Shown piece after piece: positions 11,681 to 60,251 of a stretch of 64,000 nt of DNA. The stretch lies in NCBI RefSeq assembly GCF_921293095.1, contig NC_060259.1:42637812-42701811 (forward strand), given 5' to 3'. The first letter of the stretch is position 1; every line of letters begins with the position of its first letter. The position numbers and the translations under genes were made by a program. The DNA comes from Ischnura elegans. Taxonomy: Eukaryota; Arthropoda; Insecta; Odonata; Coenagrionidae. A model generated the notes under the pieces. That model searched no databases. It worked only from the letters and a program-made list of their open reading frames with translations, and was not told the origin of the DNA.

Positions 11681-11759
11681 ATGTTTTGAAATAATAGGAA
11701 ACAAACAACAAAACAACCTTTGGTTGGGGACATTAGTTTTCCTATTATTTCAAAACATA

Positions 11760-12520
11760 CCTCTATGACCTCTGACCCCATTGTGACCCTCGCTGGTAAT
11801 AAAAAGTCGACAATATGGATTTAAAAACAGCAAAACTGACTTGGGCACCCTTTAAAACACATTGTTACACTCTTTTGCTGTCATGGTGGGCCGATTTAAC
11901 TCTATTACCCTTGACCCCCATTATGACCTTCGGAGGTCAAAATATCAACAATACGGATGTACGAACAGCCTAACCGACTTTGGCACCCTTGAAAACCTAT
12001 GGTTTGACACCTTGGTTGTCATGATGGCTCGACGTTTGACTCTATGACCTTTGACCCCAATTGTGACCTTCGGAGGTCAAAAAATCAACAATACGGATCT
12101 ACGAACAGCCTAACCGACTTTGGCACCCTTCAAAACCTATGGTTTGACACCTTGGTTGTCATGATGGCTCGACGTTTGACTCTATGACCTTTGACCCCAA
12201 TTGTGACCTTCGGAGGTCAAAATATCAACAATACGGATCTACGAACAGCCTAACCGACTTTGGCACCCTTCAAAACCTATGGTTTGACCCCTTGGTTTTT
12301 ATGATTGCCCCACTTTTAACTCTATGACCTTTGACCCCCGTGGTGACCCTCGGAGGTCAATTAGTGAATAATACGGGTATTTGGACAATACCAATGACTT
12401 GGGCACCTTACAAAACCCATGGATCGACACCTTTGTTGGTATGCTATTCCTTTTGCCACCCTTATGACCTTGACGGTGGCCTTACTGGGTCAACGGTTGA
12501 ATATTCGTAAATAAAAGTGT
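11760..12520 (-). repeat. 140-bp tandem repeat in the right foldback arm, one unit more than the left
   Basis: This is the mirror image of the left-arm array. CGGAGGTCAA recurs at 11,931, 12,071, 12,211 and 12,351, with diverged units at each end. Pairing from the centre outwards leaves one unit of the right arm without a partner, so the arms differ by 140 bp. TGACCTTTGACCC is present at 12,045, 12,185 and 12,325. Confidence 0.85.
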
Positions 12521-16448: not shown

Positions 16449-17791
16449 ATGTATCACTTTTCCTGCTCTTTGCCAAATAGACCTTGGGGCCCGAAAGAAT
16501 ATTATCTCGCTTTACCGGTCTGTCTGCAACGGCGAATACTGCGAGAGGGGACTAGTCGTATCTCGAAGGCTCACTTATTCTAGAATCACCTGCTCTTGCT
16601 CATTTTACTTTGCTCTACCAACCAAGGGCAACTGATTGCTACTTTAGCCTATATTTTGTAAATACGCATGACCTAAACTGAAAAAGATTATTTAAAAAAC
16701 TTTGGACCGAATCACTCAAATGAAGAGCAAGCGATAATCGACATCGCCGGAAGGACGACAGAGATAATTGCATAGGAGATGTGATTTAAATCTGAAGCTA
16801 GTTGTCTGTTGTCAAGCTTGTTGTCAAGCTTGTTGCAACATGTCTGTTGCAACACGGGATGGCCTTTAGAAAAATACGATGAACCAGTTGCAAATGGTAT
16901 TTTGTACTTTTAAGGATGTGATCTGAGAATCTGTGGCTGAGAATCCATCACATTCAGCGTATGTAGTAAAACCGTTTAAAAAAACTGTATGTAGACCCTT
17001 GATGTTGATGGGACTCAAAGAGTAAATATCTGTGTTCAAAGCCTTTATATAATTGTTTTTCACAAGGTTGCATCTTCTTTTTAGTGATTATTTATTCTTT
17101 TTCACCTCATTATTTATTCTTTTTTTATACATTTCTAAGTACGTGAATGGTAAGCGAAAGCTTAATCCACCAGTTTCCAATAATTAATTTTGGATGCAAT
17201 GTGCCGAAAAGTACGATTCTATGATCATCAACATTACTTCTGCATTTTAAAAATACACATGCGAGCTTACATTCAAATAGTGTAATATAAGGGGTCAAAA
17301 GGAGAAAACCATTTCTTCAATAGCGTAGCTTAGCACAAGGTGATATAATTAAAATGAAAATCTGACTTATTGCTCGGCGTATGTTATTGAAATGGCAGTT
17401 GTAAACCTTTAGCATTAATCACGAACTCTGAGTGACAATAATTTGGGAAAAATTAAGCTACTCCATCCGCGCCGTCACTTACTTCTTACTAGCCAGAAAA
17501 AGTTTATACATCCTTTCTTTCATCATTTTCAGAATTATCTTATCAATCATGAACTAAATCCACGGATCAGACACAAAAAGTGCTCCATTAACACATCATA
17601 TTAATGTAAACATTCTAAAAGAGGGTGTAAAAAACATTATTTCATATACTTCTATGACCAAATATGTGATTTATTACATTTTAAACAATTTGAAGACAAA
17701 AATACAGTGGATCATATAAATGTAATAAAGCCAACATTTAAAAATTTACTTTTATAAATTATATTTGGATATTAAATCTTTGTATGTAGAG
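16449..17791. other. 3' flank of gene A, no gene seen
   Basis: AT-rich sequence mirrored at 32,214-33,553. It holds a possible polyadenylation signal for gene A: TTTATT on the plus strand at 17,670-17,675, AATAAA on the coding strand. No exon was recognised. Confidence 0.6.
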
Positions 17792-20700
17792 TTACACCAT
17801 TAAGTCAATTTGCAAGCTCAAGCTGTTATTCCTGCTGGAAGCATTGTTGAATGCATTTGTAGTGTCATTTTTAGCTGCTTTCGCAGGCTTGTAAACAATG
17901 TTATTTATGTTAACTATCACATGGGGAGTATCGTTTGAATGCACCGTAAGGAGTGCTGCACATGGGGGTAATGTTGGCAATGTAGGGAGTGCTGGATGTG
18001 GGGGTATTGTTGGCAATGTAGGGAGTGTTGGAAGTGGGGGTAGTGGTGGCATTGTAGTGAATGCTGGAAGTGGGGGTAGTGGTGGCAATGGACGGAGTGC
18101 TGGATGTGGGGGTAGTGGTGGCAATGGAGGGAGTGCTGGAAGTGGGGGTAGTGGTGGCAATGGACGGAGTGCTGGATGTGGGGGTAGTGGTGGCAATGGA
18201 GGGAGTGCAGGAAGTGGGGTAAGTGGTTGCAATGGAGGGAGTGCTGGAAGTGGGGGTAGTGGTGGCAATGGAGGGAGTGCTGGACGAGGGGGTAGTGGTG
18301 GCAATGGACGGAGTGCTGGACGTGTGGGTAGGGGTGGCAATGGAGGGGGAGCTGGAGTTGGGGGTAGTGGTGGCAATGAAGGGAATGCTGGAAGTGGGGG
18401 TAGTGGTGGCAATGGAGGGAGTGCTGGAAGTGGTGGTAGTGGAGGCAATGGAGGGAGTGCTGGAAGTGAGGGAAGTGGTGGACATGGAGGGAGTGCTGGA
18501 AGTGGGGGAAGTGGTGGAAATGGAGGGAGTGCTGGAAGTGGGGGTAATGTTGGAAATGGAGGGAGTGCTGGAAGTGGGGGTAGTGGTGGCAATGGAAGGA
18601 GTGCTGGACATGGGGGTAATGTTGGCAATGGAGGGAGTGCTGGAAGTGGGGGTAATGTTGGAAATGTAGGGAGTGCTGGAAGTGGGGGTAGTGGTGGCAA
18701 TGGACGGAGTGCTGGAAGTGGGGGAAGTGGTGGCAATGGACGGAGTGCTGGACGTGTGGGTAGGGGTGGCAATGGAGGGGGAGCTGGAGTTGGGGGTACG
18801 AGTGGCAATGTATGATGTGCAGCTATTTTCTCAGGGATTTGAAGTGGTGCAGACGTCGGCTTTATAGTCATTTTAGGAACACTAGTGGTTGCCACTGTAG
18901 AATCCGGAAGAGGCTGGTTAGTGGGTGGTGTGCTGATGTCCTGTGAAATTCCAACATTTACTTCTGGATGAGATTGACTGCTTTGGATCGTGTGTGACGC
19001 GGGTATAGCTGGTTCGTCATCATGGATCGCTGAAATGGAAAATGTAAATGCAATTAGATAAAGGAGATAACAACTAAATATTTAGCCCTTAAGTCTCAGG
19101 TCGCTGGAAGGATGAAAGGAGAACATGTTGGGGATAATATTAATAGGTATCCATTTAAAATGAAGTCATCTAAAAAAAATCCCTCACGTGTCTTTTCCAA
19201 AATTATTGTCGTTCGTTTCGTTATCCCTGAACTGAATGAGTATCTCGACCTACTTACAACGCCGGATTCGTTTAAATTTGACCGCAGGTGTGGGATAATT
19301 GAAAACAGATATATTGTATTCTTGTAAAATTTGTTTCTTGATAACTGTTTTTAATAAGCCTGTTATTGTTAGGCATTTTTAACATTTCTCCACATTACCT
19401 AATTTTTGGTATAAGTGCATCTCAATTCAACTCTTTCAGCAACACACGAGCCTTATTATTTATTTCATATCGGCTCGCAATAGCTGCAGAGGTATGTTGC
19501 TTTCCGCATTTTCCAGCCTCATTTTTTAATTAGCTAGTTCAATATGAATCGGCTTCTTGATGTTTCTATTAGTGGTTTTGCAATACTTGACAGAACATTA
19601 GAAACAGAGCGTCAGCATTCCTTAAAGTGATTCAAAATTACGACTCGAAGAAATTCATAAGTTTTCAAAACCGTTTCAATAAGATCTATATTATCAGACG
19701 CGGCAAGGGAAGTAAAGCGGTATTTTAGGGGACCATCGAGTCATTGGATTGCTTAATTGCTATACGGGTAACTTAGCAAATTTTCTGGTGAAAAAACCAT
19801 AAAAAATTACCTAATATATAGCAGTTTCAGTTTTAATTTTGCTCCTTTTCACAGATAGAATCACGAGAATCTTATACTCTTCTATTGTACCAGGGAAGAA
19901 GATATAATTAAAAAAAATGGAAAAAAGATTTTCGAATGGTTTTTATGAAAAAAAAAATTGAAACACATCAAATACCATGCATCTGCATCAAACTTCGCTG
20001 GAACGAAACCTTTAGTTTTCTATCCATAGGATGAGGAATTATCCACATCTTGCTTCATCTGAATAACCCATTCCTTCGCCACTTGTGTGCATTGACATAC
20101 CACGCTCACACCCCAGTTTCAATTTAGAACGGTTGCTATTTGTTTCTGTGACGTGCGTTTTCGATTTCGTTACTGAAATTTTCTGTGTCTCGATATTTTA
20201 AAATTATTTTTATAATGGTGCATTTGGTATCAGATAAGATTCGCTACTTAACCGAAATGTGTTTAACTACTCAAGTGATAGGGACATTTATTCCCCATTG
20301 GGTTTTTAACTGCAGAAATACGGATGCATTACAAATGTTTCTTTGCCATTGAAACTAAAGCATGATCTTCCACCGTTTTTCTTATTTGGGGCAATGCAAC
20401 CTCAATGCCATACTGTGAAATAAGAGAGAAGCGTGTCGTGTTGGAAAATTTGGCCGCAAGTGTTGAATGATTGAAAACAGATATATATTATTTTATTTAA
20501 TTTTTTCGTGATAATTATTTAAAATTATCCTACTGTTCTTAGGTATTTTCTATCATATCCTGCATATCACATTATGTTTGGTAAATGTGCATCTAAACTC
20601 TTAAAACTACACACGAGCCTTATTATTGGTTGCATATCGGCTCCAAATTTGCTGCGGAGGTGTAATGTTTTCCGCATTTTAGAGCATCATATATTATTTA

Positions 20701-23700
20701 ATAATCTAATTTAATCTCATTCGGCGTCTTGATAATCGTATTAGTGTTTAACAATAGTTGACAGAACATTAGAAGCAGAGCGTCAGCATTTCTAAAAGTG
20801 ATTCAAAATTACGACTCGAAAAAATTCATACGTCTTTAAAACCATTTCAATATGATCTATCTTATCATACGCTACAAGGGAAGCATGGCGGTATGTTAAG
20901 GGGCCATCGGGTCATTGGATTGCTTACCGGTTTCAAAGGAAAACGTAGCATTTTTATGATTGTAGTTGTTTGATGCCTCCAGATTTGATGTAACATTTTT
21001 AATTTTAACGTCATAAATGCTTAGTCCATTCCTTGGCTCATCTAAAAGAAAAATAATATTTAGTAATAGTCATGTGAAGAATTTACGCATAGTTAATTGG
21101 TATACGGGTAACCTAGTGAAAATTCTGGTTAAAAAAACATTAAAAATTTACCTCATATATAGCAGTATCAGTATTAATTTTGCTCGTATTCACAGATATA
21201 TCCCCGAGAATCTTATACTCTTACATTGTGCAAGGGAGAAGATATAATTCGAAAAAATGGAAGTAATATTTTCAAGTGGTTTTTTTGAAAAAAAATTTAA
21301 TCGCTATCAATAATACCATGCATGTGAATCAACCTTCGCTGGAACGAAACTATAGTTTTCTATCCAAAGGATAAGGAATTAACCACAACTTGCTTGAAAA
21401 CAGATATATATTATGTAATTTAATTTTTTCGTGATAATTATTTAAAATAATCCTATTGTTCTTAGGTATTTTCTATCATATCCTGCATATCACATTATGT
21501 TTGGTAAATTTGCATCTAAACTCTTAAAACTACACACGAGCCTTATTATTGGTTGCATATCGGCTCCAAATTTGCTGCGGAAGTTTAATGTTTTCCGCAT
21601 TTTAGAGCATCATATATTATTTAATAATCTAATTTAATCTCATTCGGTCTCTTGATAATCGTATTAGTGTTTAACAATAGTTGACAGAACATTAGAAGCA
21701 GAGCGTCCGCATTCCTAAAAAATATTCAAAATTACGACTCGAAAAAATTCATACGTCTTCAAAACCGTTTCATTATGATCTATCGTATCAGACGCTGCAA
21801 GGGAAGCATGGCGGTATGTTAAGGGGCCATAAGGTCATTGGATTGCTTACCGGTTTCAAAGGAAAACGTAATATTTTTATGATTGTAGTTGTGTGATGCC
21901 TCCAGATTTGAGGTTACATTTTTAATCCTCACATCATAAGTGTTTCGTCCATTCTTTGGCTCACCTAAAAGAAAAAATAATAATTAGTAATAGTCATAAG
22001 AAAGAATGACGCATAGTTAATTTGTATACGGGTAACCTAGAGAAAATTCTGGTGAAAAAACAATAAAAATTACCTAACATATAGCAGTATCAGTATTAAT
22101 TTTGCTCGTATTCACAGATATATCCCCGAGAATCTTATACTCTTACATTGTGCAAGGGAGAAGATATAATTCGAAAAAATGGAAGAAATATTTTCAAGTG
22201 GTTTTTTTGAAAAAAAAATTAATCGCTATCAATAATACCATGCATGTGAATCAACCTTCGCTGGAACGAAACTGTAGTTTTCTATCCAAAGGATAAGGAA
22301 TTAACCACAACTTGCTTGAAAACAGATATATATTATGTAATTTAATTTTTTCGTGATAATTATTTAAAATAATCCTATTGTTCTTAGGTATTTTCTATCA
22401 TATCCTGCATATCACATTATGTTTGGTAAATTTGCATCTAAACTCTTAAAACTACACACGAGCCATTTTATTGGTTGAATATCGGCTCCAAATTTGCTTC
22501 GGAGGTGTAATGTTTTCCGCATATTAGAGCCTCATATATTATTTAATAATCTAATTTAATCTCATTCGGTTTCTTTATAATCGTATTAGTGTTTAACAAT
22601 AGTTGACAGAACATTAGAAGCAGAGCGTCCGCATTCCTAAAAAATATTCAAAATTACGACTCGAAAAAATGCATACGTCTTCAAAACCGTTTCATATGAT
22701 CTATCGTATCAGACGCTGCAAGGGAAGCATGGCGGTATTTTATGGGGCCATCGGATCACTGGATTACTTACCGGTTTCAAAGGAAAACGAATCATTTTTA
22801 TGATTGTAGTTGTGTGATGGCTCCAGATTTGATGTTACATTTTTAATCCTCACATCATAAGTGTTTCGTCCATTCTTTGGCTCACCTAAAAGAAAAAATA
22901 ATAATTAGTAATAGTCATTGGAAAGAATGACGCATAGTTAATTTGTACACGGGTAACCTAGTGAAAATTCTGGTTAAAAAAACATTAAAAATTTACCTCA
23001 TATATAGCAGTATCAGTATTAATTTTGCTCGTATTCACAGATATAACCCCGAGAATCTTATACTCTTACATTGTGCAATGGAGAAGATATAATTCGAAAA
23101 AATGGAAGAAATATTTTCAAGTGGTTTTTTTGAAAAAAAATTTAATCGCTATCAATAATACCATGCATGTGAATCAACCTCCGCTGGAACGAAACTTTTA
23201 GTTTTCTATCCAAAGGATAAGGAATTAACCACAACTTGCTTGAAAAAAGATATATATTATTTGAATTAATTTTTTCGTGATAATTATTTAAAATAATCCT
23301 ACTGTTCTTAGGTATTTTCTACTATATCCAGCATATCACATTATGTTTGGTAAATGTGCATCTCAACTCTTAAAACTAAACACGAGCCTTATTGTTGACT
23401 ACATATCGGCTCCCAATTGCTGCGGAGGTGTAATGATTTCCGCATTTTAGAGCATCATTTATTATTTAATAATCTAATTTAATCTCAATCGGCTTCTTGA
23501 TGTTTCTAGTAGTGGTTTTGCAGTACTTGACAGAACATTAGAAGCAGAGCGTCAGAATTCCTAAAGGTGATTCAAAATTACGACTCGAAGAAATTCATAA
23601 GTCTTCGAAACCGTTTCAATATGATCTATCTTATCATACGCTGCAAGGGAAGCATGGCGGTATGTTAAGGGGCCATCGAGTCATTGGATTGCTTACCGGT

Positions 23701-25351
23701 TTCAAAGGAAAACGTAGCATTTTTATGATTGTAGTTGTGTGATGCCTCCAGATTTGATGTAACATTTTTAATTTTAACGTCATAAATGCTTTGTCCATTT
23801 CTTGGCTCACCTAAAAGAAAAATAATATTTAGTAATAGTCATGTGAAGAATTTACGCATAGTTAATTGGTATACGGGTAACCTAGTGAAAATTCTGGTGA
23901 AAAAACGATAACAATTTACCTAATATATAGCAGTATCAGTATTAATTTTGCTCGTATTCACAGATATAACCCCGAGAATCTTATACTCTTAAATTGTGCA
24001 AGGGAGTAGATATAATTCGAAGAAATGGAAGAAATATTTTCAAGTGGTTTTTTTGAGAAAAAATTTAATCGCTATCAATTATACCATGCATCTGAATCAA
24101 ACTTCGCTGGAACGAAGCTTTTAGTTTTCTATGCAAAGGATAAGGAATTGACCACATCTTGCTTCATCAAAATCGCCCAATCCTTCGCCATATTAGTGTA
24201 TTCACATACTACACTCACACCCCAGTTTTAAATTTCAACGGTTGCTTTTAGTTTCTGTTACGTGGGTTTTCTATTTCGTTTTCAACGGAAAACAAAGCAT
24301 TTTTATGACTGTACTTGTGTGATGCCTCCTGATTTGATGTTAAATGTTTAATTTTCAAATAATTAATCTTTTGTCCATTCCTTAGCTCTCCTATAAGAGA
24401 AAATAATAATAAATAATAGTCATGTTGAAGAATGACGTATAGTTATTAGGTATACGGGTAACCTAGCGAAAACTCTGGCGAAAAAGCCATAAAAATTACC
24501 TAATATATAGCAGTTTCACTTTTAATTTTGCTCGTATTCACAGATATAACCACGAGAATCTTACACTCTTCTCTTTTGCCAGGGAGATGATATAATTCGA
24601 AAAAATGGAAGAAATATTTTGGAGTGGTTTTTTTTTTTTTAATTGAATCGCTATCCCAAATACCGTGCATCAGAATCGAACTACGCTGGAACGAAACTTT
24701 TAGTTTTCTATACATTGGATAAGGAATTAACCAAATCTTGCGTCCTCAAAATGACTTATTTCTTCTAATTTTTTTGCATTCACATTTGCATTCGGACTTG
24801 GTTGATTGGAGAGAGGTGAGGTTAGAGTGGAAGGGAATATCAAGTTAAAATTATTATCTGAAGATGCCATCTCATACAATGCCATATTATGATATAAAAA
24901 AGTTACAACTGTGGTTTTGCATTGTTTGGAAATACGGTCGACCCCACAATTAGGGGCGCACCCCTGCGATAACCATCTGTATCCGCCACACATGAAGATG
25001 TTAAACATTCAGTAGAAATACCGAGGAGACTTCAGTGGAGACGAGGCTCGTTGTGGAGCGGTTTTGAAGCGGTAATGCTCTAAAAATGCTAGGGGGAATG
25101 TTTGCAAGTAAGGTAGTGGCAGAAAGTATTATTTGTACACACAAAGACAGCGAATAGGCCTTATTTTGAGTTGAAGAGGTGAGTTCAATATTTCAAGACA
25201 TTGATCAGTGCGATTAAAAATCTTCTCCGGGTAAAAAAACTTGTACCGGTAGAAAAGGGAATGAAAGAATATTTCGTAACTTACTTTGGTCCGACAGGAG
25301 AACTCCCGTAACACAAAGTGCCACAGCAAGGATGAAATGTCTTGCAGACAT
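17792..25351 (-). CDS. Gene A: secreted modular proline/leucine-rich repeat protein (586 aa predicted)
   Basis: Function and family are not recognised. Predicted coding exons on the minus strand are 25,285-25,351, 23,697-23,810, 22,772-22,885, 21,851-21,964, 20,928-21,041 and 17,792-19,029. All junctions are GT/AG and all are phase 1, and the total of 1761 nt is 587 codons including the stop. Exon 1 encodes a signal peptide ([16 protein letters not shown]...). Each of the four 114-nt exons encodes a 38-residue module of the type [18 protein letters not shown], then SHNYNHKN[ADI][ST]FSFET, with two N-glycosylation sequons. The last exon starts with a Ser/Thr/Pro linker. It then has about two dozen 12-residue Pro/Leu repeats ([12 protein letters not shown]) and ends in an Asn-rich tail ([16 protein letters not shown]...). 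It is probably an extracellular structural or coating protein; that is inference. A seventh module-like exon at about 24,277-24,390 has lost its donor and is probably skipped. Confidence 0.75.
17960..18830 (-). repeat. 36-bp minisatellite in the last exon of gene A, about 24 units
   Basis: The plus-strand unit is approximately GGAGGGAGTGCTGGAAGTGG followed by GGGTAGTGGTGGCAAT. The period is 36 bp, so the reading frame is kept through any unit gain or loss. In the coding frame it gives [12 protein letters not shown]. Every other frame is also nearly free of stops, which creates long spurious Gly/Ser-rich and Val/Glu-rich frames on the plus strand and a Ser/Thr-rich frame on the minus strand. 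Confidence 0.95.
19850..24720 (-). repeat. Tandem exon-plus-intron units of gene A
   Basis: A unit comprising one module exon and its flanking intron is repeated in tandem. Exons at 20,928, 21,851, 22,772 and 23,697 are about 920 bp apart. In gene B the equivalent units are about 1330 bp. The inner gene A units therefore look like amplification of a shortened unit. Recurrent intron landmarks are ATTCACAGATATAACCCCGA, TTGACAGAACATTAGAAGCA and TACGGGTAACCTAG. A further partial unit at 19,740-19,850 lacks its exon altogether (TTGCTTAATTGCTATACGGG). Confidence 0.85.
24277..24390 (-). pseudogene. Decayed module exon in gene A
   Basis: It is recognisable as a 38-residue module (acceptor TCTTATAG, then GAGAGCTAAGGAATGGACAA). 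The 3' end runs directly into unit-internal intron sequence instead of CCG|GTAAGC, so no donor remains. The same decayed exon is present at the mirror position in gene B, so the loss predates the palindrome or was copied between the arms. Confidence 0.65.
24890..25000. repeat. Small intronic repeat fragment, gene A
   Basis: GGTCGACCCCACAATTAGGG, then GCGCACCCCTGCGATAACC and TGTATCCGCCAC, resembles the GC-rich head of arthropod short repeats. It is mirrored in gene B and present in gene C. The open frames over it (93 codons) are not supported as exons. Confidence 0.4.
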
Positions 25352-26097
25352 TTCAAGTACGCTGGAAGAGACCTAAGAAGGTAGAACTTGATCACGAACT
25401 AGAAGCTAGAACTTGAGCACGATCAATCGACGACCGCTCTAGAACAGTCCCACTTTTATTCTCTCTCGCCATCCATGGGGTCGGTCTTCGCCCACTCTTT
25501 TCGTCCATCCCATCCGGTCTACGCCCACGATTTGCGTCAAGTGATCATATGACTCTTATTAGAAGTTACAAGAAACAAATAGAGGATGACGTCGTGCTAA
25601 ATAGCTTTGCAATGAATCATAGCATATTTGTTTTTTGCATCGAATGTCTTCCGTTCATGTGTTTATATTATGATGACTTTCATTCCAAACAGTGGTGGAA
25701 ATTGTAAATTCAAACACAACACCGTCGCCAACGGCCGAAATTTACAATTTCTACCACTGTTTGGAATGAAAGTCATCATTGTATAAACACGTGAACGGAA
25801 GACATTCGATGCAAAAAACAAATATGCTATGATTCATTGCAAAGCTATTTAGCACGACGTCATCCTCTATTTGTTTCTTGTAACTTCTAATAAGAGTCAT
25901 ATGATCACTTGACGCAAATCGTGGGCGTAGACCGGATGGGATGGACGAAAAGAGTGGGCGAAGACCGACCCCATGGATGGCGAGAGAGAATAAAAGTGGG
26001 ACTGTTCTAGAGCGGTCGTCGATTGATCGTGCTCAAGTTCTAGCTTCTAGTTCGTGATCAAGTTCTACCTTCTTAGGTCTCTTCCAGCGTACTTGAA
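25352..26097. promoter_or_regulatory. Shared divergent promoter region of genes A and B, spanning the palindrome centre
   Basis: Both start codons lie about 375 bp from the palindrome centre. A TATA-like AATAAAAG is at 25,989-25,996 for gene B, with its mirror CTTTTATT at 25,453-25,460 for gene A. A 5' leader rich in AGTTCTAGCTTCTAG-type repeats follows. The same promoter block precedes gene C (CTTTTATT at 60,354-60,361). Conservation in all three copies suggests a functional promoter. Start sites are inferred. Confidence 0.6.
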
Positions 26098-29000
26098 ATG
26101 TCTGCAAGACATTTCATCCTTGCTGTGGCACTTTGTGTTACGGGAGTTCTCCTGTCGGACCAAAGTAAGTTACGAAATATTCTTTCATTCCCTTTTCTAC
26201 CGGTACAAGTTTTTTTACCCGGAGAAGATTTTTAATCGCACTGATCAATGTCTTGAAATATTGAACTCACCTCTTCAACTCAAAATAAGGCCTATTCGCT
26301 GTCTTTGTGTGTACAAATAATACTTTCTGCCACTACCTTACTTGCAAACATTCCCCCTAGCATTTTTAGAGCATTACCGCTTCAAAACCGCTCCACAACG
26401 AGCCTCGTCTCCACTGAAGTCTCCTCGGTATTTCTACTGAATGTTTAACATCTTCATGTGTGGCGGATACAGATGGTTATCGCAGGGGTGCGCCCCTAAT
26501 TGTGGGGTCGACCGTATTTCCAAACAATGCAAAACCACAGTTGTAACTTTTTTATATCATAATATGGCATTGTATGAGATGGCATCTTCAGATAATAATT
26601 TTAACTTGATATTCCCTTCCACTCTAACCTCACCTCTCTCCAATCAACCAAGTCCGAATGCAAATGTGAATGCAAAAAAATTAGAAGAAATAAGTCATTT
26701 TGAGGACGCAAGATTTGGTTAATTCCTTATCCAATGTATAGAAAACTAAAAGTTTCGTTCCAGCGTAGTTCGATTCTGATGCACGGTATTTGGGATAGCG
26801 ATTCAATTAAAAAAAAAAAAACCACTCCAAAATATTTCTTCCATTTTTTCGAATTATATCATCTCCCTGGCAAAAGAGAAGAGTGTAAGATTCTCGTGGT
26901 TATATCTGTGAATACGAGCAAAATTAAAAGTGAAACTGCTATATATTAGGTAATTTTTATGGCTTTTTCGCCAGAGTTTTCGCTAGGTTACCCGTATACC
27001 TAATAACTATACGTCATTCTTCAACATGACTATTATTTATTATTATTTTCTCTTATAGGAGAGCTAAGGAATGGACAAAAGATTAATTATTTGAAAATTA
27101 AACATTTAACATCAAATCAGGAGGCATCACACAAGTACAGTCATAAAAATGCTTTGTTTTCCGTTGAAAACGAAATAGAAAACCCACGTAACAGAAACTA
27201 AAAGCAACCGTTGAAATTTAAAACTGGGGTGTGAGTGTAGTATGTGAATACACTAATATGGCGAAGGATTGGGCGATTTTGATGAAGCAAGATGTGGTCA
27301 ATTCCTTATCCTTTGCATAGAAAACTAAAAGCTTCGTTCCAGCGAAGTTTGATTCAGATGCATGGTATAATTGATAGCGATTAAATTTTTTCTCAAAAAA
27401 ACCACTTGAAAATATTTCTTCCATTTCTTCGAATTATATCTACTCCCTTGCACAATTTAAGAGTATAAGATTCTCGGGGTTATATCTGTGAATACGAGCA
27501 AAATTAATACTGATACTGCTATATATTAGGTAAATTGTTATCGTTTTTTCACCAGAATTTTCACTAGGTTACCCGTATACCAATTAACTATGCGTAAATT
27601 CTTCACATGACTATTACTAAATATTATTTTTCTTTTAGGTGAGCCAAGGAATGAACAAAGCATTTATGACGTTAAAATTAAAAATGTTACATCAAATCTG
27701 GAGGCATCACACAACTACAATCATAAAAATGCTACGTTTTCCTTTGAAACCGGTAAGCAATCCAATGACTCGATGGCCCCTTAACATACCGCCATGCTTC
27801 CCTTGCAGCGTATGATAAGATAGATCATATTGAAACGGTTTCGAAGACTTATGAATTTCTTCGAGTCGTAATTTTGAATCACCTTTAGGAATGCTGACGC
27901 TCTGCTTCTAATGTTCTGTCAAGTACTGCAAAACCACTACTAGAAACATCAAGAAGCCGATTGAGATTAAATTAGATTATTAAATAATAAATGATGCTCT
28001 AAAATGCGGAAATCATTACACCTCCGCAGCAATTGGGAGCCGATATGTAGTCAACGATAAGGCTCGTGTTTAGTTTTAAGAGTTGAGATGCACATTTACC
28101 AAACATTATGTGATAAGCAGGATATGATAAAATATGCCTAAGAGCACTAGAAGTATTTAAAATAGTTATCACGAAAAAATTATAAAAGAATAATATATAT
28201 CTGTTTTCAATTATCCAACACTTACGGCCAAGTTTTCCAACACGACACGCTTCTCTCTTATTTCAATGCATCGTCATGAGGTTGCCTTTCACCCACTAAG
28301 AAGAACGGTGGAAGATCATGCTTTAGTTTCAACGGCAATGAAATATTTGTAATGCATCCCTATTTCTACAGTTAAAAATTCCAAATGGGGAATATATGTC
28401 CCTATCACTTGAGTGGATACACACAATTCGGCTAAGTAGGGAATGTTATCTGATACCAAATGCACCATTATAAAAATAATTTTAAAATTTCGAGACACAA
28501 CTAATTTCAGTAACGAAATCGAAAACCTACGTAACAGAAGCTAAAAGTAACCGTTAAAATTTAAAACGGGGGTGTGAGTGTAGCATGTGAATGCACACAT
28601 ATGGCGAAGGAATGGCTGATTTTGATGAAGCAAGTTGTGGTTAATTCCTTATCCTTTGGATAGAAAACTAAAAGTTTCGTTCCAGCGAAGGTTGATTCAC
28701 ATGCATGGTATTATTGATAGCGATTAAATTAAAAAAAAAAAAAAAAACCACTTGAAAATATTTCTTCCATTTTTTCGAATTATATATTCTCCCTTGCACA
28801 ATGTAAGAGTATAAGATTCTCGGGGTTATATCTGTGAATACGAGCAAAATTATTACTGATACTGCTTAATGTTGGGTAATTTTTATTGTTTTTTCACCAG
28901 AATTTTCGCTAGGTTACCCGCATACCAATTAACTATGCGTCATTCTTTCACATGACTATTACTAATTATTATTTTTTCTTTTAGGTGAGCCAAAGAATGT

Positions 29001-32000
29001 ACGAAACATTTATGACGTGAAAATTAGAAATGTAACATCAAATCTGGAGGCATCACACAACTACAATCAGAAAAATTTTTCGTTTTCCTTTGAAACCGGT
29101 AAGAAATCCATTGACTCGATGGTCCATTAAAATACCGCCATGCTTCCCTTGCAGCGACCGATACGATAGATCATATTGAATCGGTTTTGAAGACGTATGA
29201 ATTTTTTCGAGTCGTAATTTTGAATCACTTTTAGAAATGCTGACGCTCTGCTTCTAATGTTCTGTCAACTATTGTTAAACACTAATACGATTATGAGATT
29301 AAATCAGATAATTAAATAATAAATGATGCTCTAAAATGCGGAAAACATTACACCTCCGCAGCAAATTTGGAGCCGATATGCAACCAATAATAAGGCTCGT
29401 GTGTAGTTTTAAGTGTTTAGACGCACATTTACCAAACATAATGTGATATGCAGGATATGATAGAAAATACCTAAGAACAGTAGGATAATTTTAAATAATT
29501 ATCACGAAAAAATTAAATAAAATAATATATATCTGTTTTCAATTATCCAACACTTGCAGCCAAATTTTCCAACACGACACGCTTCTCTCTTATTTCACAG
29601 TATGGCATTGAGGTTGCATTGCCCCAAATAAGAAAAACGGTGGAAGATCTTCCTTTAGTTTCAATGGCAAAGAAACATTTGTAATGCATCCGTATTTCTG
29701 CAGTAAAAAACCCAATGGGGAATAAATGTCCCTATCACTTGAGTAGTTAAACACATTTCGGCTAAGTAGCGAATCTTATCTGATACCAAATGCACCATTA
29801 TAAAAATAATTTTAAAATATCGAGACACAGAAAATTTCAGTAACGAAATCGAAAACGCACGTCACAGAAACAAAAAGCAACCGTTCTAAATGAAAACTGG
29901 GGTGTGAGCGTGGTATGTCAATGCACACAAGTGGCGAAGGAATGGGTTATTTAGATGAAGCAAGATGTGGATAATTCTTCATCCTATGGATAGAAAACTA
30001 AAGGTTTCATTCCAGCGAAGTTTGATTCAGATGCATGGTATAATTGATAGCGATTAAATTTTTTCTAAAAAAAAACAACTTGAAAATATTTCTTCCATTT
30101 CTTCGAATTATATCTACTCCCTTGCACAATGTAAGAGTATAAGATTCTCGGGGTTATATCTGTGAATACGAGCAAAATTAATACTGATACTGCTATATAT
30201 TAGGTAAATTTTTATCGTTTTTTCACCATAATTTTCACTAGGTTACCCGTATACCAATTAACTATGCGTAAATTCTTCACAAGACTATTACTAAATATTA
30301 TTTATCTTTTAGGTGAGCCAAGGAATGGACAAAGCATTTATGACGTTAAAATTAAAAATGTTACATCAAATCTGGAGGCATCACACAACTACAATCATAA
30401 AAATATTACGTTTTCCTTTGAAACCGGTAAGCAATCCAATGACTCGATGGCCCCTTAACATACCGCCATGCTTCCCTTGCAGCGTATGATAAGATAGATC
30501 ATATTGAAACGGTTTTGAAGACTTATGAATTTGTTTGAGTCGTCATTTTGAATCACTTTAAGGAATGCTGACGCTCTGTTTCTAATGTTCTGTCAAGTAT
30601 TGCAAAACCACTAATACAAACATCAAGAAGCCGATTATTATTGAACTAGCTAATCAAAAAATGAGGCAGGAAAATTCGGAAAGCAACATACCTCTGCAGC
30701 TATTGCGAGCCGATATGTAATAAATAATAAGGCTCGTGTGTAGCTGAAAGAGTTGAATTGAGATGCACTTATACCAAAAATTAGGTTATGTGGAGGATAT
30801 GTTAAAAATGCCTAACAATAACAGGCTTATTAAAAACAGTTTTCAAGAAACAAATTTTACAAGAATACAATATATCTGTTTTCAATTATCCCACACCTGC
30901 GGTCAAATTTAAACGAATCAGGCGTTGTAAGTAGGTCGGGATACTCATTCACTTCAGGGATGACGAAACGAAGGACAATAATTTAGGAAAAGACACGTGA
31001 GGTATTTTTTTTGAGATGACTTCATTGTAAATGGATACCTATTAATATTATCCCCAACATGTTCTCCTTTCATCCTTCAAGCGACCTGAGACTTAAGGGC
31101 TAAATATTTAGTTGTTATCTCCTTTATCTTATTGCATTTTAATATTCCATTTCAGCGATCCATGATGACGAACCAGCCATACCCGCGTCACACACGATCC
31201 AAGGCAGTCAATCTCATCCAGAAGTAAATGTTGGAATTTCACAGGACATCAGCACACCACCCACTAACCAGCCTCTTCCGGATTCTACAGTGGCAACCAC
31301 TAGTGTTCCTAAAATGACTATAAAGCCGACGTCTGCACCACTTCAAATCCCTGAGAAAATAGCTGCACATCATACATTGCCACTCGTACCCCCAACTCCA
31401 GCTCCCCCTCCATTGCCACCCCTACCCACACGTCCAGCACTCCGTCCATTGCCACCACTTCCCCCACTTCCAGCACTCCGTCCATTGCCACCACTACCCC
31501 CACTTCCAGCACTCCCTACATTTCCAACATTACCCCCACTTCCAGCACTCCCTCCATTGCCAACATTACCCCCATGTCCAGCACTCCTTCCATTGCCACC
31601 ACTACCCCCACTTCCAGCACTTCCTCCATTTCCAACATTACCCCCACTTCCAGCACTCCCTCCATTTCCACCACTTCCCCCACTTCCAGCACTCCCTCCA
31701 TTGCCTCCACTACCACCACTCCCAGCACTCCCTCCATTGCCACCACTACCCCCACTTCCAGCATTACCTTCATTGCCACCACTACCCCCAACTCCAGCTC
31801 CCCCTCTATTGCCACCCCTACCCACACGTCCAGCACTCCGTCCATTGCCACCACTACCCCCACTTCCAGCACTCCCTCCATTGCCACCACTACCCCCACA
31901 TCCAGCACTCCGTCCATTGCCACCACTACCCCCACTTCCAGCATTCACTACAATGCCACCACTACCCCCACTTCCAACACTCCCTACATTTCCAACAATA

Positions 32001-32213
32001 CCCCCACATCCAGCACTCCCTACATTGCCAACATTACCCCCATGTGCAGCACTCCTTACGGTGCATTCAAACGATACTCCCCATGTGATAGTTAACATAA
32101 ATAACATTGTTTACAAGCCTGCGAAAGCAGCTAAAAATGACACTACAAATGCATTCAACAATGCTTCCAGCAGGAATAACAGCTTGAGCTTGCAAATTGA
32201 CTTAATGGTGTAA
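26098..32213 (+). CDS. Gene B: secreted modular proline/leucine-rich repeat protein (488 aa predicted)
   Basis: This is the mirror copy of gene A on the right palindrome arm. Exons are 26,098-26,164 (signal peptide), 27,639-27,752, 28,985-29,098 and 30,313-30,426 (three 38-residue modules), and 31,156-32,213. All introns are GT/AG and phase 1, and 1467 nt make 489 codons including the stop. Modules end in [16 protein letters not shown] and NITFSFET, so each keeps an N-glycosylation sequon with a different middle residue. The last exon lacks exactly five 12-residue repeats relative to gene A, but its C-terminal tail is identical. A decayed module at about 27,061-27,174 has no donor. AATAAA lies at 32,331-32,336, about 120 bases after the stop. 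Function is unknown; the signal peptide, sequons and polyproline-like repeats point to an extracellular product. Confidence 0.75.
26640..30840 (+). repeat. Tandem exon-plus-intron units of gene B
   Basis: Units of about 1330 bp (exon starts 27,639, 28,985, 30,313) mirror those of gene A but keep an extra ~0.4 kb intron segment with ACGAAATCGAAAAC and CGACACGCTTCTCTCTTATT. The inner gene A units have lost that segment. Confidence 0.85.
31385..32060 (+). repeat. 36-bp minisatellite in the last exon of gene B, about five units fewer than gene A
   Basis: Unit CACTTCCAGCACTCCCTCCA followed by TTGCCACCACTACCCC. The frame is kept throughout, and the repeat region is 180 bp (5 x 36) shorter than in gene A. 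Two divergent units near 31,790 and 31,830 (CCCAACTCCAGCTCCCC, CCCACACGTCCAGCACTCCG) match divergent units in genes A and C, so unit order is partly conserved. Confidence 0.95.
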
Positions 32214-33553
32214 CTCTACATACAAAGATTTAATATCCAAATATAATTTATAAAAGTAAATTTTTAAATGTTGGCTTTATTACATTTATATGTTCCACTG
32301 TATTTTTGTCATCAAAATTGATTAAAATGTAATAAATCACATATTTGGTCATAGAAGTATATGAAATAATGTTTTTTACACCCTCTTTTAGAATGTTTAC
32401 ATTAATATGATGTGTTAATGGAGCACTTTTTGTGTCTGATCCGTGGATTTAGTTCATGATTGATAAGATAATTCTGAAAATGATGAAAGAAAGGTTGTAT
32501 AAACTTTTTCTGGCTAGTAAGAAGTAAGTGACGGCGCGGATGGAGTAGCTTAATTTTTCCCAAATTAGTGTCACTCAGAGTTCGTGATTAATGCTAAAGG
32601 TTTACAACTGCCATTTCAATAACATACGCCGAGCAATAAGTCAGATTTTCATTTTAATTATATCACCTTGTGCTAAGCTACGCTATTGAAGAAATGGTTT
32701 TCTCCTTTTGACCCCTTATATTACACTATTTGAATGTAAGCTCGCATGTGTATTTTTAAAATGCAGAAGTAATGTTGATGATCATAGAATCGTACTTTTC
32801 GGCACATTGCATCCAAAATTAATTATTGGAAACTGGTGGATTAAGCCTTCGCTTACCATTCACGTACTTAGAAATGTATAAAAAAAGAATAAATAATGAG
32901 GTGAAAAAGAATAAATAATCACTAAAAAGAAGATGCAACCTTGTGAAAAACAATTATATAAAGGCTTTGAACACAGATATTTACTCTTTGAGTCCCATCA
33001 ACATCAAGGGTTTACATACAGTTTTTTTTAAACGGTTTTACTACATACGCTGAATGTGATGGATTCTCAGCCACAGATTCTCAGATCACATCCTTAAAAG
33101 TACAAAATACCATTTGCAACTGGTTCATCGTACTTTTCTAAAGGCCATCCCGTGTTGCAATAGACATGTTGCAACAAGCTTGACAACAAGCTTGACAACA
33201 GACAACTAGCTTCAGATTTAAATCACATTTCCTATGCAATTAGCTCTGTCGTCCTTCGGGCGATGTCGATTATCGCTTGCTCTTCATTTGAGTGATTCAG
33301 TCCAAAGTTTTTTAAATAATCTTTTTCAGTTTAGGTCATGCGTATTTACAAAATATGGGCTAAAGTAGCAATCAGTTGCCCTTGGTTGGTAGAGCAAAGT
33401 AAAATGATCAAGAGCAGGTGATTCTAGAATAAGTGAGCCTTCGAGATACGACTAGTCCCCTCTCGCAGTATTCGCCGTTGCAGACAGACCGATAAAGCGA
33501 GATAATATTCTTTCGGGCCCCAAAGTCTATTTGGCAAAGAGCAGGAAAAGTGA
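32214..33553. other. 3' flank of gene B, no gene seen
   Basis: Mirror of 16,449-17,791. It holds the candidate AATAAA at 32,331 and otherwise AT-rich sequence. Confidence 0.6.
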
Positions 33554-55019: not shown

Positions 55020-55495
55020 GCTGGAAATGGGGGTAATGTTGGCAACTTAGGGAGTGCTGGAAGTGGGGGTAGTGTTGGCAATGCAGGGAGTGCTGGAAGT
55101 GGTGGTAGTGGTGGCAATGCAGGGAGTGCTGGAAGTGGTGGTAGTGGTGGCAATGGAGGGAATGCTGGAAGTGGGGGTAGTGGTGGCAATGGAGGGAGTG
55201 CTGGAAGTGGGGGTAGTGGTGGCAATGGAGGGAGTGCTGGACGTGGAAAATTAAAATGGTAGTGGTGGCAATGGACGGAGTGCTGGACGTGTGGGTAGGG
55301 GTGGCAATGGAGGGGGAGCTGGAGTTGGGGGTAGTGGTGGCAATGAAGGGAGTGCTGGAAGTGGAGGTAGTGGTGGAAATGCAGGGAATGCTGGAAGTGG
55401 GGGTAGTGGTGGCAATGGAGGGAGCGCTGGAAGTGGGGGTAGTGGTGGAAACGGAGGGAGTGCTGGAAGTGGGGGTACGGGTGGCAATGTATGAT
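55020..55495 (-). repeat. 36-bp minisatellite in the last exon of gene C, about 13 units
   Basis: Same unit family as in genes A and B, interrupted near 55,243-55,256 by an AT-rich insertion that ends the main frame. Confidence 0.9.
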
Positions 55496-58400
55496 GTGCA
55501 GCTATTTGTTTAGGGATTTGAAGTGGTGCAGACGTCGGCTTTATAGTCATTTTAGGAACACTAGTGGTTGCCACTGTAGAATCCGGAAGAGGCTGGTTAG
55601 TGGGTGGTGTGCTGATGTCCTGTGAAATTCCAACAATTACTTCTGGATGAGATTGACTGCCTTGGATCGTGTGTGACGCGGGTATGGCTGGTTCGTCATC
55701 ATGGATCGCTGAAATGGAAAATTAAAATGCAATAAGATAAAGGAGATAACAACTAAATATTTAGCCCTGAAGTTTCAGGTCGCTGGAAGGATGAAATGAG
55801 AACATGTTGGGGATAATATTAATAGGTATCCATTTACAATGAAGTGATATCGAAAAAAATACCTCACGTGTCTTTTCCTAAATTATTGTCGTTCGTTTCG
55901 TTATCCCTGAAGTGAATGAGTATCCCGACCTACTTACAACGCCGGATTCGTTAAAATTTGACCGCAGGTGTTGGATAATTGAAAACAAATATATTGCTTT
56001 CTTGTTAAATTCGTTTCTTGAAAACTGTTTTTAATAAGCCTGTTATTCTTAGGCATTTTTAACATACCCTCCACATTACGTAATTTTTGGTATAGGTGCA
56101 TCTTAATTCAACTCTTTAAGCTACACACGAGCCTTATTATTTATTACCTATCGGCTCGCAATAGCTGCAGAGGTATGTTGCTTTCCACATTTTCCAGCCT
56201 CATTTTTTAATTAGCTAGTTCAATCTCAATCGGCTTCTTGATGTTTGTATTAGTGGTTTTGCAATACTTGACAGAGCATTTGAAGCAGAGTGTTAGCATT
56301 CCTAAACTTGATTCAAAATTACTACTCGAAGAAATTCATAAGTCTGAAGACTTATGAATTTCTTTGTTTCCATATGATTTATCTTATCAGACGCGGTAAG
56401 GGAAGCATGGCGGTATTTTAAGGGGCCATCGAGTCATTTGATTGCTAACCGGTTTCAACGGAAGACGAAGCATTTTTATGATTGTACTTGAGTGATTCCT
56501 CCTGATTTGATGTTAAATTTTAAATTTTCACGTCATTTATATTTTGTCCATTCCTTTGTTCACTTAAAAGAAAAAATAATTATTAGTAATAGTCATGTGA
56601 AATAATGACGCATAATTAATTGGTATACGGGTAACCTAGCGAAAATACTGGTGAAAAAACCATAAAAAATTTTCTAATATGAAGCAGTTTCAGTTTTAAT
56701 TTTTCTTGGATTCACAGATATAACCACGAGAATCTTACACTCTTCTATTGTGCCAAAGAGAAGATATAATTCGATTAAATGGAAGAAAAATTTTCAAATT
56801 GTTTCTTTAAAAAAAATAATTTAATCACTATCCCAAATACCATGCATCAGAAACAAACAAAGGAGGAGTAACTTACCACATCTTACTTCCTCAAAATCAC
56901 CCATTCCTTCGCTACTTTATGAATTCACATACCACAATCATACCCCAATATTAAAATTTAACGGTTGCTTTTCGTTTCTGTGACGTGCGTTTTTGGTTTC
57001 GTTACTGAAATTTAATGTGTCCCGGAATTTTAAAATTTTTTTTAAAAATGGTGCATTTTGTATCAGATAACATTCCTTACTTATCCGAAGTGTTTATCCA
57101 CGCAAGTGATCGGGACATTCCCCATTTTTCCCCATTCGTGTTTTTAACTGTAGAAATACGGATGCATTACAAATGTTTCAATGCTATTGAAACTATAGCA
57201 TGATTTCCACCGTTTTGCTAAGTGGGGCAATACAACCTCATGACCATGCTGTGAAATAAGAGAGAAGCATGTCGTGTTGCAAAATTTGGCCGCAAGTGTT
57301 GGATAATTGAAAACAGATGTATTTTATTCCAATATAAATTTTTGCTGGATAAATATTTTAAATAGCCCTGATTTTCTTAGGCATTTATTTATCATATCCT
57401 GCACCTTTCCTAATTTTAGGTAAAAGTGCATCTCAATTCAACTCTTAAAACTACACACGAGCCATATTATTGGTTACATATCGGCTCCCAATTGCTGCGG
57501 AGGTGTATTGTTTCCTGCATTTTGAAGCATCATTTATTTTTTAAGTAGCTAATTTAATCACAATCGGCTTCTTGATGTTCGCGTTAGTGAGTTTGCAATA
57601 CTTGACAGAACATTAGAAGCAGAGCGTCAGCATCCCTAAAGGTGCATCAAAATTACGACGCAAAGAAATTCATAAGTTTTCAAAGCCGTTTCAATCTGAT
57701 CTATCTTATCAGACGCTGCAAGGGAAGCATGGCGGTATTTTAAGGGGCCATCGAGTCATTGTATTGCTTACCGGTTTCAAGGGAAAACGAAGCATTTTTA
57801 TGATTGTGCTTGTGTGATGCCTCCTGATTTGAGGTTACATTTTTAATCCTCACATCATAAGTGTTTCGTCCATTCTTTGGCTCACCTGAAAGAAAAAATA
57901 ATAATTAGTAATAGTCATAAGAAAGAATGACGCATAGTTAATTTGTATACGGGTAACCTAGTGAAAATTCTGGTGAAAAAACGATAACAATTTACCTAAT
58001 ATATAGCAGTATCAGTATTAATTTTGCTCGTATTCACAGATATAACCCCGAGAATCTTATACTCTTAAATTGTGCAAGGGAGTAGATATAATTCGAAGAA
58101 ATGGAAGAAATATTTTCGAGTGTTTTTTTGAAAAAAAAAATTGAATCGCTTTCCTAAATACCTTGCATCAGAATCGAACTACGCTGGAGCGAAACTTTTA
58201 GTTTTCTATCCAATGGATGAGGAATTAACCAAATATTGCGTCCTCAAAATGACTTATTTGTTCTAATTTTTTTGTATTCACATTTACATTCAGACAGGGT
58301 TGATTGGAGAGAGGTGAGGTAAGAGTGCAAGGGAATATCAAGTTAGAATTACACTAGTCAACAGCCATTTTGCATCTCGGATGTGATACATCAATTTTTA

Positions 58401-60251
58401 TGTAATTTAGTGTGTAGAATTCGAATATGCCTTTCAAAATGTTCTAGCACGTGCCATTTTTAGTTTTTAAAGTTTTTTTTTATTCTTCGTATTTAGTATT
58501 TCGCTTTTTTTCTGGTCTTCTGTTTTAACGTTTAATTGTTTGTTGTTAATTGTTTTTATTTGCCGAGGAAAGCTGGAAGATCTACAAATCGTCTGTAAAT
58601 GGTTGGTTTGGTGATCCATTGGAGTGAAAGAGATTCTCAGTGAGTGTTTTGTGTGAAAGATGGTGGAAATTTTTGTGTATGAAGCTTACACTAAGAAAAA
58701 TGGCAACTGGTAAATCCCGTTGCTATGTAAACCACCCCGACAACTTTTGTTTTGTGTGTGGGAAATTCACTCCAAAAACCGAAGGAAAACCAATCACTGA
58801 TTTGGTTGAGAAGGCGTATAAAACTTATTTTGATTGCCCTCTTGGCGATCAAGATAAATATTTTGCACCTCATATTGCCTGCATAACCTGTAATACAACC
58901 TTAACCGGGTGGTTGAAAGGAAAACGCCGAGGCATGCAATTCGCTGTCCCAGTGGTGTGGTGTGAGCCTAAAGACTGTTACTTCTGTCTTACAAATATTT
59001 CGGGACATTCAAGCAAGACTAGACATAAAATAAAGTACCCAAATTTATCTTCAGTGCATTTGCCCGTGCCCCATGATGAGGTCTTGTTAGGGATAGTAAT
59101 GAAAAGGCAAACAAAAGAACCCGTCGTCGCATTTTTCAAAAAAGAAAGACGATTAGAGGTGAAAATATCTTCTGAACTATTTTGGATCTTTTATTGGCAT
59201 CATACCCATATATCATACAAATATTTGTATGAATGTATTTTAAGTGTATTGATTTCAAACTTTCTGAATGTCTGTTTTTGTTTTTCTTAATTGTGTCAAT
59301 TTTCGCTATTACCATTTTTATTCTGCTGTGTATCTAGGAAAAATGACGTCCTAGAGATGAACTGATTTTACCATTGTATTCAGAACCCCAAAGTTAGGTA
59401 AATCCACCCATTTACAAACCAGATGCAAAAAAAGAGTTTAAATTTGTTAACTAGTGTTATTATCTGAAGATACGTTTTGCACGATGTGGATATCCTGGAC
59501 GCTAAGGAAGCAGGGCGGCTAATGGCTTGATTCGCTGGTTGCATTGGCACGGAAGAGAATGGAGAGTTTAGTTTGGAATGGGTTTGAAGCAAAGAAACTT
59601 TATGCATGGTGGGTGAAGAGCAGTAGCGGATAAAGAAATTACTTAAGTGGGGCGCAAAAGATACCTTGTGTTACCTTTACTTTATCGTAATAAAAAATAA
59701 TAAAGTTACATGCAAAGTTTAAACAGGCTTTAATTTAAGTGATTATGTAAATATAAAATACAATGCCATCTTATGATATAAAAAATTTACAACTGTGGTT
59801 TTGCATTGTTTGGAAATACGGTCGACCACACAATTTGGGGCGCACCCCTGCGACCCCCATCTGTATCCGCCACTGATGAAGATGTTAAACATTCAGTAGA
59901 AATACCGAGGAGACTTCAGTGGAGACGAGGCTCCTTGTTGAGCGGTTTTTAAGCGGTAATGCTCTAAAAATTGTAGGGGGAATGTTTTCAAGTAAGGTAG
60001 TGGCAGAAAGTATTATATGTAAACACAAAGATAGCAAATAGGCCTTATTTTTGTTGTTAGTTACTTGTTAGTTGAAGAGGTGAGTTCAATATTTCAAGAC
60101 ATTGATCAGGGCAATTAGAAATCTTCTCCGGGTAGAAAAACTTGTACCGGTAGAAAAGGAATGCAAGAATATTTCGTAACTTACTTTGGTCCGACAGGAG
60201 AACTCCCGTGACACAAAGTGCCACAGCAAGGATGAAATGTCTTGCAGACAT
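55251..60251 (-). CDS. Gene C: third, shortened copy of the secreted proline-rich family (212 aa predicted)
   Basis: Usable exons are 60,185-60,251 (signal peptide [16 protein letters not shown]...), 57,772-57,885 (one intact 38-residue module ending NASFSLET) and the last exon from 55,708. Joined in phase 1 they give 639 nt to a stop at 55,251-55,253. The stop arises where AAAATTAAAATGG replaces regular 36-bp repeat sequence. Beyond it the Pro/Leu repeats continue in another frame down to 54,836 with a recognisable but diverged tail ([20 protein letters not shown]). A second module at about 56,450-56,563 has an altered acceptor (AAGTGAAC for AGGTGAGC) and would shift the frame. Gene C may be a pseudogene or may make a short secreted protein. 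Its divergence from genes A and B shows it is an older duplicate. Confidence 0.6.
58352..59456 (+). mobile_element. CACTA-like insertion in an intron of gene C
   Basis: It is absent at the equivalent places in genes A and B, where AAAATTATTATCTGAAG is uninterrupted. Here AATTA is followed by CACTAGTCAACAGCC, the insertion ends TTAACTAGTG, and TTATTATCTG resumes. The ends CACTAGTYAACA are short inverted repeats, and TTA is duplicated (58,349-58,351 and 59,457-59,459). CACTA ends with a 3-bp duplication fit the CACTA/CMC class. At 1.1 kb it carries only one partial gene, so it is a deleted copy. Confidence 0.75.
58700..59290 (+). CDS. Cys-rich N-terminal fragment of a transposon-associated arthropod protein
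   Basis: The frame starts [20 protein letters not shown] (an upstream in-frame ATG at 58,640 also exists). Zinc-ligand pairs are visible: [21 protein letters not shown] and DCYFCLTNI. The linking motifs [29 protein letters not shown] and [14 protein letters not shown] are hallmarks of a long, repetitive arthropod protein family of unknown biochemistry that behaves like a transposon protein. I believe the WYYMPAT-LPIGQ block at 15.3 kb belongs to the C-terminal half of such proteins. Similarity ends near residue 150, where GAG|GTGAAA could be a donor. The remaining codons to 59,290 look like read-through into intron. It lies inside the CACTA-like insertion. Confidence 0.7.
   Translation: MATGKSRCYVNHPDNFCFVCGKFTPKTEGKPITDLVEKAYKTYFDCPLGDQDKYFAPHIACITCNTTLTGWLKGKRRGMQFAVPVVWCEPKDCYFCLTNISGHSSKTRHKIKYPNLSSVHLPVPHDEVLLGIVMKRQTKEPVVAFFKKERRLEVKISSELFWIFYWHHTHISYKYLYECILSVLISNFLNVCFCFS
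59472..59757. repeat. Second intronic insertion in gene C
   Basis: About 285 bp absent from genes A and B lie between TATCTGAAGAT and ATACAATGCCATCTTATGAT. It contains AGTAGCGGATAAAGAAATTA and GGGGCGCAAAAG, reminiscent of short repeat heads. No clear target duplication was seen. Confidence 0.5.

Follow-up and report, generated by a model that had tools for sequence, protein, structure and literature searches.

Within the window, that is, the whole stretch of 64,000 nt of Ischnura elegans DNA analysed here, three related gene-like structures were found, called copies A, B and C (Table 1). Copies A and B are intact from ATG to stop. The spliced model of copy A (26098-32213, plus strand) contains a coding sequence of 1467 nt for 488 aa, and that of copy B (25351-17792, minus strand) one of 1761 nt for 586 aa, each with a single, terminal stop codon. 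All internal exon boundaries of A and B carry AG/GT, and the phases close. The 67-nt signal exon described in an earlier note on this DNA is present in all three copies, each time followed by GT, and it encodes a stretch that is hydrophobic by eye and may be a signal peptide. The 114-nt phase 1-1 modules of that note were recovered as well: BLAST at an E-value of 1e-3 found 11 module-like exons, eight of which are intact and flanked by AG and GT (three in A, four in B and one in C), while three are not. Phase 1 is the entry phase of the last exon. The TATA-like string listed for copy A, AATAAAAG, is also found upstream of B and C, and AATAAA occurs once each in the 3' flanks of B and C. Searches for tRNAs and for Rfam families at the gathering score found none.

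Table 1. Positions in the window of the exons, repeats and putative signals of the three copies and of the palindrome.
Feature	Position	Strand	Remark
Copy A, TATA-like AATAAAAG	25989..25996	+	upstream of A; putative role
Copy A, signal exon	26098..26164	+	67 nt
Copy A, module-like exon	27059..27172	+	no GT donor; presumably skipped
Copy A, module exon 1	27639..27752	+	114 nt, phase 1-1, two sequons
Copy A, module exon 2	28985..29098	+	
Copy A, module exon 3	30313..30426	+	
Copy A, last exon	31156..32213	+	linker, X-Leu-Pro array, Asn-rich tail, stop
Copy A, 36-nt repeat	31375-32055		in last exon
Copy A, AATAAA	32331..32336	+	about 120 nt past the stop
Copy B, signal exon	25285..25351	-	67 nt
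Copy B, module-like exon	24277..24390	-	no GT donor; mirror of 27059-27172
Copy B, module exon 1	23697..23810	-	
Copy B, module exon 2	22772..22885	-	
Copy B, module exon 3	21851..21964	-	
Copy B, module exon 4	20928..21041	-	
Copy B, last exon	17792..19029	-	linker, X-Leu-Pro array, tail, stop
Copy B, 36-nt repeat	17950-18810		in last exon
Copy C, signal exon	60185..60251	-	67 nt
Copy C, intact module exon	57772..57885	-	
Copy C, broken module	56450..56563	-	acceptor AA for AG, in-frame stop
Copy C, last exon	55251..55708	-	to premature stop within array
Palindrome	16454..33553	none	about 17 kb, centred near 25725, with B and A placed head to head

Copy C, which extends from 60251 to 54.8 kb on the minus strand, is damaged. 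One of its two modules is broken, with the acceptor lost and a stop in frame, its array is interrupted so that the gene model ends after 212 aa, and a frame shift lies at the end of the tail. It is therefore misleading to say, as the earlier note does, that all three genes close in phase, since this holds for A and B but not for C. In the same way, the description of three copies sharing one build applies to A and B, but the third is damaged in a module and in the repeat exon. The conserved Asn-rich tail was found in all three copies, as had been reported. Intron 1 of copy C contains about 1.4 kb (58351-59758) with no counterpart in A, and within it lies a Cys-containing ORF of 220 codons (58628-59287) with no Pfam match at an E-value of 1. 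The segment 53851-54588, which adjoins the 3' end of the homology of C to A and B, is 93% identical to 43866-44597.

Several other elements were found in the window. Two overlapping frames with DDE_Tnp_4 matches in Pfam (2832-3559, plus strand) form a frame-shifted transposase, which we take to be Harbinger-like. At 39691-40821 (plus strand), a reverse transcriptase fragment (RVT_1) is followed by another ORF that has no Pfam match and presumably resembles a Penelope-type GIY-YIG end. A pair of inverted 1.4-kb repeats (45023-46419 and 51220-52616), 99.8% identical, is probably a recent mobile-element pair, and 140-nt tandem arrays in opposite orientation lie at 11219-12438, one on each side of a point near 11.7 kb.

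The modules are near-identical copies with a length of 38 residues. Both N-glycosylation sequons are kept in all eight intact modules, with A, F, I or D as the middle residue of the second. In total, there are 10 sequons in A and 12 in B, with four in the Asn-rich tail in each case. Shuffled sequences had 5.4 and 7.0 on average (p about 0.025 for either copy, which is overstated since the repeated modules are not independent). No cysteine occurs in the eight modules, and the whole proteins of A and B have three and four, respectively. For one module, an AlphaFold2 model from an eight-row alignment was of low confidence (mean pLDDT 55), and the helix it shows is doubtful.

The last exon contains the Pro/Leu array in a single long exon, as claimed earlier, but its true period is three residues (X-Leu-Pro) rather than twelve, the 12-residue repeat being four such triplets. 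Tandem Repeats Finder reported 18.9 copies of a 36-nt unit in A, 23.9 in B and 13.2 in C, with weaker rows of a 9-nt period in the same arrays. Leucine occupies one phase of three in 55/72 triplets of A and 72/92 of B (76-78%), and proline the phase after it in 65/71 and 82/91. This places a hydrophobic residue regularly on what would be one face of a proline-rich repeat. A polyproline helix has roughly three residues per turn according to PMC10115654, so the leucines would form a stripe along one face of a polyproline-II helix.

The array alone says little about the coding frame. Its consensus 36-nt unit is stop-free in all three sense and two antisense frames, so openness by itself proves little, and since the last exon of A has open runs of up to 241, 246 and 351 codons in the three sense frames, the array cannot decide between them. 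The coding frame is fixed by the linker, of which a single frame is open: in all three copies, the frame demanded by splicing is free of stops, and the other two contain four and six. All eight modules are stop-free in the required frame; per module, 0-2 and 4-7 stops were counted in the other two.

Searches with the sequences of the family gave no convincing relative in Pfam, and matches in the PDB were at chance level. The N-terminal domain of EF-P (PF08207) scored 23.2 bits in a query of tandem modules, with a cut-off of 23. This match was rejected as chance because its score is a sum over short stretches of the tandem modules, with 14.3 bits for one module on its own. The match consists of two stretches, the best covering 23 of the 58 positions of the KOW-like domain, and two of the eight modules match (best E-value 0.044). 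From the same query, matches to baeRF_family7 (E-value 0.003), IRS (E-value 0.0046), COBRA, AHD, FAM53 and gerPA were under the Pfam cut-offs. The chance-level PDB matches were to a phospholipase C (E-value 0.084), a phosphatidylinositol transfer protein (0.088), a polygalacturonase (0.34), a glutathione transferase (0.36), ribosomal protein L35A (0.48) and a glycoprotein (0.96). In the literature, the string LPPLPPLP was found only in work on designed binders (PMC10115654), and phrase searches for Leu-Pro repeats in titles and the beginnings of abstracts returned nothing describing such a protein. No relative was found in viral contigs and prokaryote genome contigs, as expected for an animal gene. 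As judged from Pfam, the PDB and these viral and prokaryote collections, the copies may belong to an undescribed family, as the earlier note supposed.

Known classes of repetitive secreted proteins were also considered. Mucins are defined by a Ser/Thr/Pro-rich domain for O-glycosylation. A mucin-like role, which the earlier note had suggested, does not apply in the strict sense, with serine and threonine making up only 15/215 array residues in A and 17/275 in B in the frame compatible with the linker. The silk-like, cement or coating roles also raised there are conceivable. A peritrophin, which has a Cys-rich chitin-binding domain, was rejected, as the modules are Cys-free and Pfam gave no chitin-binding match. 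Glycine-rich silks and cements have Gly-rich repeats in the secreted product; here, the sense product is rich in proline and leucine, and only the antisense ORF is Gly-rich. Antisense Gly/Ser/Asn-rich ORFs with an early Met lie at 17895-18812 (plus strand, 306 codons) in B and at 31373-32110 (minus strand, 246 codons) in A.

The gene-like structures are real and probably coding. The preferred explanation, to which a probability of about 0.4 is given, is that A, B and C form a small coding family for a secreted glycoprotein with a self-associating Leu-Pro rod. The proposal of a secreted, N-glycosylated, modular protein with a Pro/Leu repeat is consistent with the sequence. An orphan secreted glycoprotein is most likely. 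Its rod may self-associate outside the cell, and a structural or coating function in the extracellular space is probable. This class is ordinary, and its one unusual feature is the X-Leu-Pro rod.

In the proposed mechanism, A and B would be transcribed divergently from the centre of the palindrome, and the signal exon would direct secretion, with subsequent removal of the signal peptide. The mature protein would consist of three to four modules, a 78-residue linker, about 70-90 X-Leu-Pro triplets and the Asn-rich tail, and could carry N-glycans at two sites per module and at up to four in the tail. The rod would adopt a polyproline-II helix with a leucine face suited to self-association or to binding hydrophobic surfaces, and the glycan-bearing ends would keep the protein soluble until secretion. 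The product would then be a component of an extracellular coat, matrix or glue.

It is quite possible that the genes are coding and their products secreted as in the preferred explanation, with the array serving simply as a disordered spacer that evolves rapidly, like those of many proline-rich gland proteins. In this case, the glycosylated head would be the part that matters and no self-assembly would take place. Several observations fit such a spacer, including the differing array lengths and the lack of visible codon constraint on the array in the Leu-Pro frame. In the last exon of A, compared with C in this frame, 20 synonymous changes were counted and 25.6 were expected, a comparison in which the repeats may be mispaired. 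An AlphaFold2 model of the last exon of A, built with no alignment, was of low confidence (mean pLDDT 50) and predicted no structure in the array. Moreover, secreted proline-rich proteins exist, for example PQN-75 of C. elegans and human PRB2 as described in PMC5612245. What speaks for a rod is the strict X-Leu-Pro register, with its leucine share of 76-78%, which exceeds mere richness in proline, but a 9-nt DNA subunit would yield this register too.

It is unlikely that the copies are decaying or non-coding duplicated DNA, composed of a minisatellite and former exons that are open mostly by chance, recent duplication and gene conversion. The broken copy C and the mirror pair of module exons that have no donors would be expected under such decay, and the modules are no more conserved than introns, differing by 9.1% compared to 6.7% in the introns upstream and 11.2% in those downstream. 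Their pooled pN/pS is 0.67 over 28 pairs of the eight modules. After 28 random changes, the chance that no module has gained a stop would be 18%, and the chance that no sequon is broken would also be 18%. Nevertheless, the linker is open in all three copies only in the frame demanded by splicing, A and B are intact, and both the linker and the upstream region have diverged less than the introns. Between A and C, the linker differs at 5/231 positions (2.2%) and the last intron at 59/729 (8.1%, p=0.0008). The corresponding values for linker and intron are 0.85% and 5.2% between A and B and 3.0% and 8.9% between B and C (p 0.002 in both cases). A 338-bp stretch upstream differs between A and C at 12/338 positions (3.6%), which is also below the intron (p=0.005).

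At the protein level, signal, linker and tail taken together have diverged less at nonsynonymous positions than the intron has overall (p=0.011 for A/C and p=0.004 for B/C). The A/C linker changes comprise four nonsynonymous and one synonymous. The A/C tail is not more conserved than the 3' flank (11.7% and 9.3%, p=0.51), and its replacements in one 11-residue stretch exchange hydrophobic residues for hydrophobic ones, which hints at constraint on residue character. Purifying selection on the modules and the array found no support in divergence, pN/pS or codon statistics. Gene conversion could be an alternative cause of the low divergence of the linker. Taken together, these comparisons of the copies give weak evidence that the protein is under selection.

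The history of A and B also affects how their similarity can be read. As they are the arms of a palindrome, which the earlier note does not mention, and are 92-98.5% identical by block, their shared exon sizes are inherited and are not independent evidence. The inner part of the palindrome (23240-28210) is 98.5% self-complementary, and the blocks 31375-33553, 30428-32055 and 28628-30261 are 96%, 94% and 92% like the opposite arm. A and B thus have a recent common origin or exchange sequence with each other. The two differ at 0/415 positions at the start of intron 1 and at 16/1285 in the 3' flank, and this high identity beyond the coding parts looks like gene conversion, which weakens the result of the linker comparison. 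The modules are spaced by about 920 nt in B and by 1330-1350 nt in A. Between the arms there is also a difference of one module, as well as differences of 36 and 144 nt in the repeat. Unequal exchange presumably alters the number of modules and the length of the rod.

The palindrome could also be partly an assembly artefact, in which two haplotypes were joined head to head, so that A and B would be allelic versions of a single gene. Such an artefact is improbable and would be compatible with any of the other explanations. Heterozygosity in some animals could reach the identity seen between the arms, but an entire module and several repeat units are not shared between the arms.

A more far-reaching version of the preferred explanation is that the product is a secreted biomaterial with a new principle: an (X-Leu-Pro)n rod of 70-90 triplets, in which a leucine stripe would zip molecules together outside the cell, capped by exon-encoded N-glycan modules. 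The number of glycan modules would be tuned by exon duplication inside the palindrome. This is speculative and decidedly improbable. If transcribed and secreted, the product would represent a long (X-Leu-Pro)n protein made in nature. It would also illustrate how the dose of glycan modules in a secreted protein can vary by means of a palindrome and symmetric exons. If it is merely an orphan proline-rich gland protein, it would be one of many.

That the true product comes from a different frame of the array or from its opposite strand, as either a mucin-like sense frame or the antisense Gly-rich ORF, is very unlikely: both frames remain open throughout the arrays of A and B, and a Ser/Thr/Pro repeat would be usual for a mucin, but the mucin frame has six stops in the linker and z -1.10 on distinct changes, the antisense Gly frame has z 0.53 on distinct changes, and its ORF is down to about 100 codons in C. 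These codon statistics on distinct changes (39 changes, 36 units), with z 0.21 in the Leu-Pro frame and 1.23 in the third sense frame, support no frame. A first codon count, based on 37 units including one mis-registered stretch of C, gave z 0.20 (Leu-Pro), 0.90 (third sense) and -0.84 (mucin) on distinct changes. Counted by occurrence, so that a variant passed on to several units enters more than once, the values were 0.81, 3.69 and -2.08. The value of 3.69 for the third sense frame contrasts with the two obtained on distinct changes, and this frame has four stops in the linker.

Among known systems, the nearest working analogue of the proposed rod is maize gamma-zein with its (PPPVHL)8 repeat. 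The PPPVHL sequence is described as an amphipathic polyproline-II repeat that self-assembles (PMC3224952), and the rod proposed here is predicted to behave alike. The differences are that gamma-zein has a hexapeptide and is a storage protein of the seed that stays in the ER, and no sequence kinship is claimed. PLP tripeptide repeats can adopt polyproline II according to PMC10115654, and the designed (PLP)n peptides described there share both the tripeptide and the conformation proposed here. In contrast to the putative natural protein, they are synthetic, have four to six repeats and are bound by designed proteins. Since polyproline II is the form in which these binders hold a few PLP units (PMC10115654), a putative natural rod with 70-90 such units would be testable as a self-assembling material.

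Other secreted proteins resemble the copies in their build. TsetseEP is secreted and has a simple proline-rich repeat domain, but its repeat is Glu-Pro and it is described as carrying a lectin domain, and the modules here match no Pfam family convincingly; kinship is not claimed. Insect mucins and peritrophins are secreted, repetitive and often glycosylated. For peritrophins, these traits are in part described in PMC3998921. Both differ from the array found here, which is poor in serine and threonine, and from its modules, which are Cys-free and in which Pfam found no chitin-binding domain. PQN-75 of C. elegans and human salivary PRB2 have a signal peptide and a long proline-rich repeat, as is predicted for the proteins here, and are described as gland products of unclear function (PMC5612245). 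PQN-75 differs in having GSPP and FG repeats (PMC5612245), and kinship is again not claimed.
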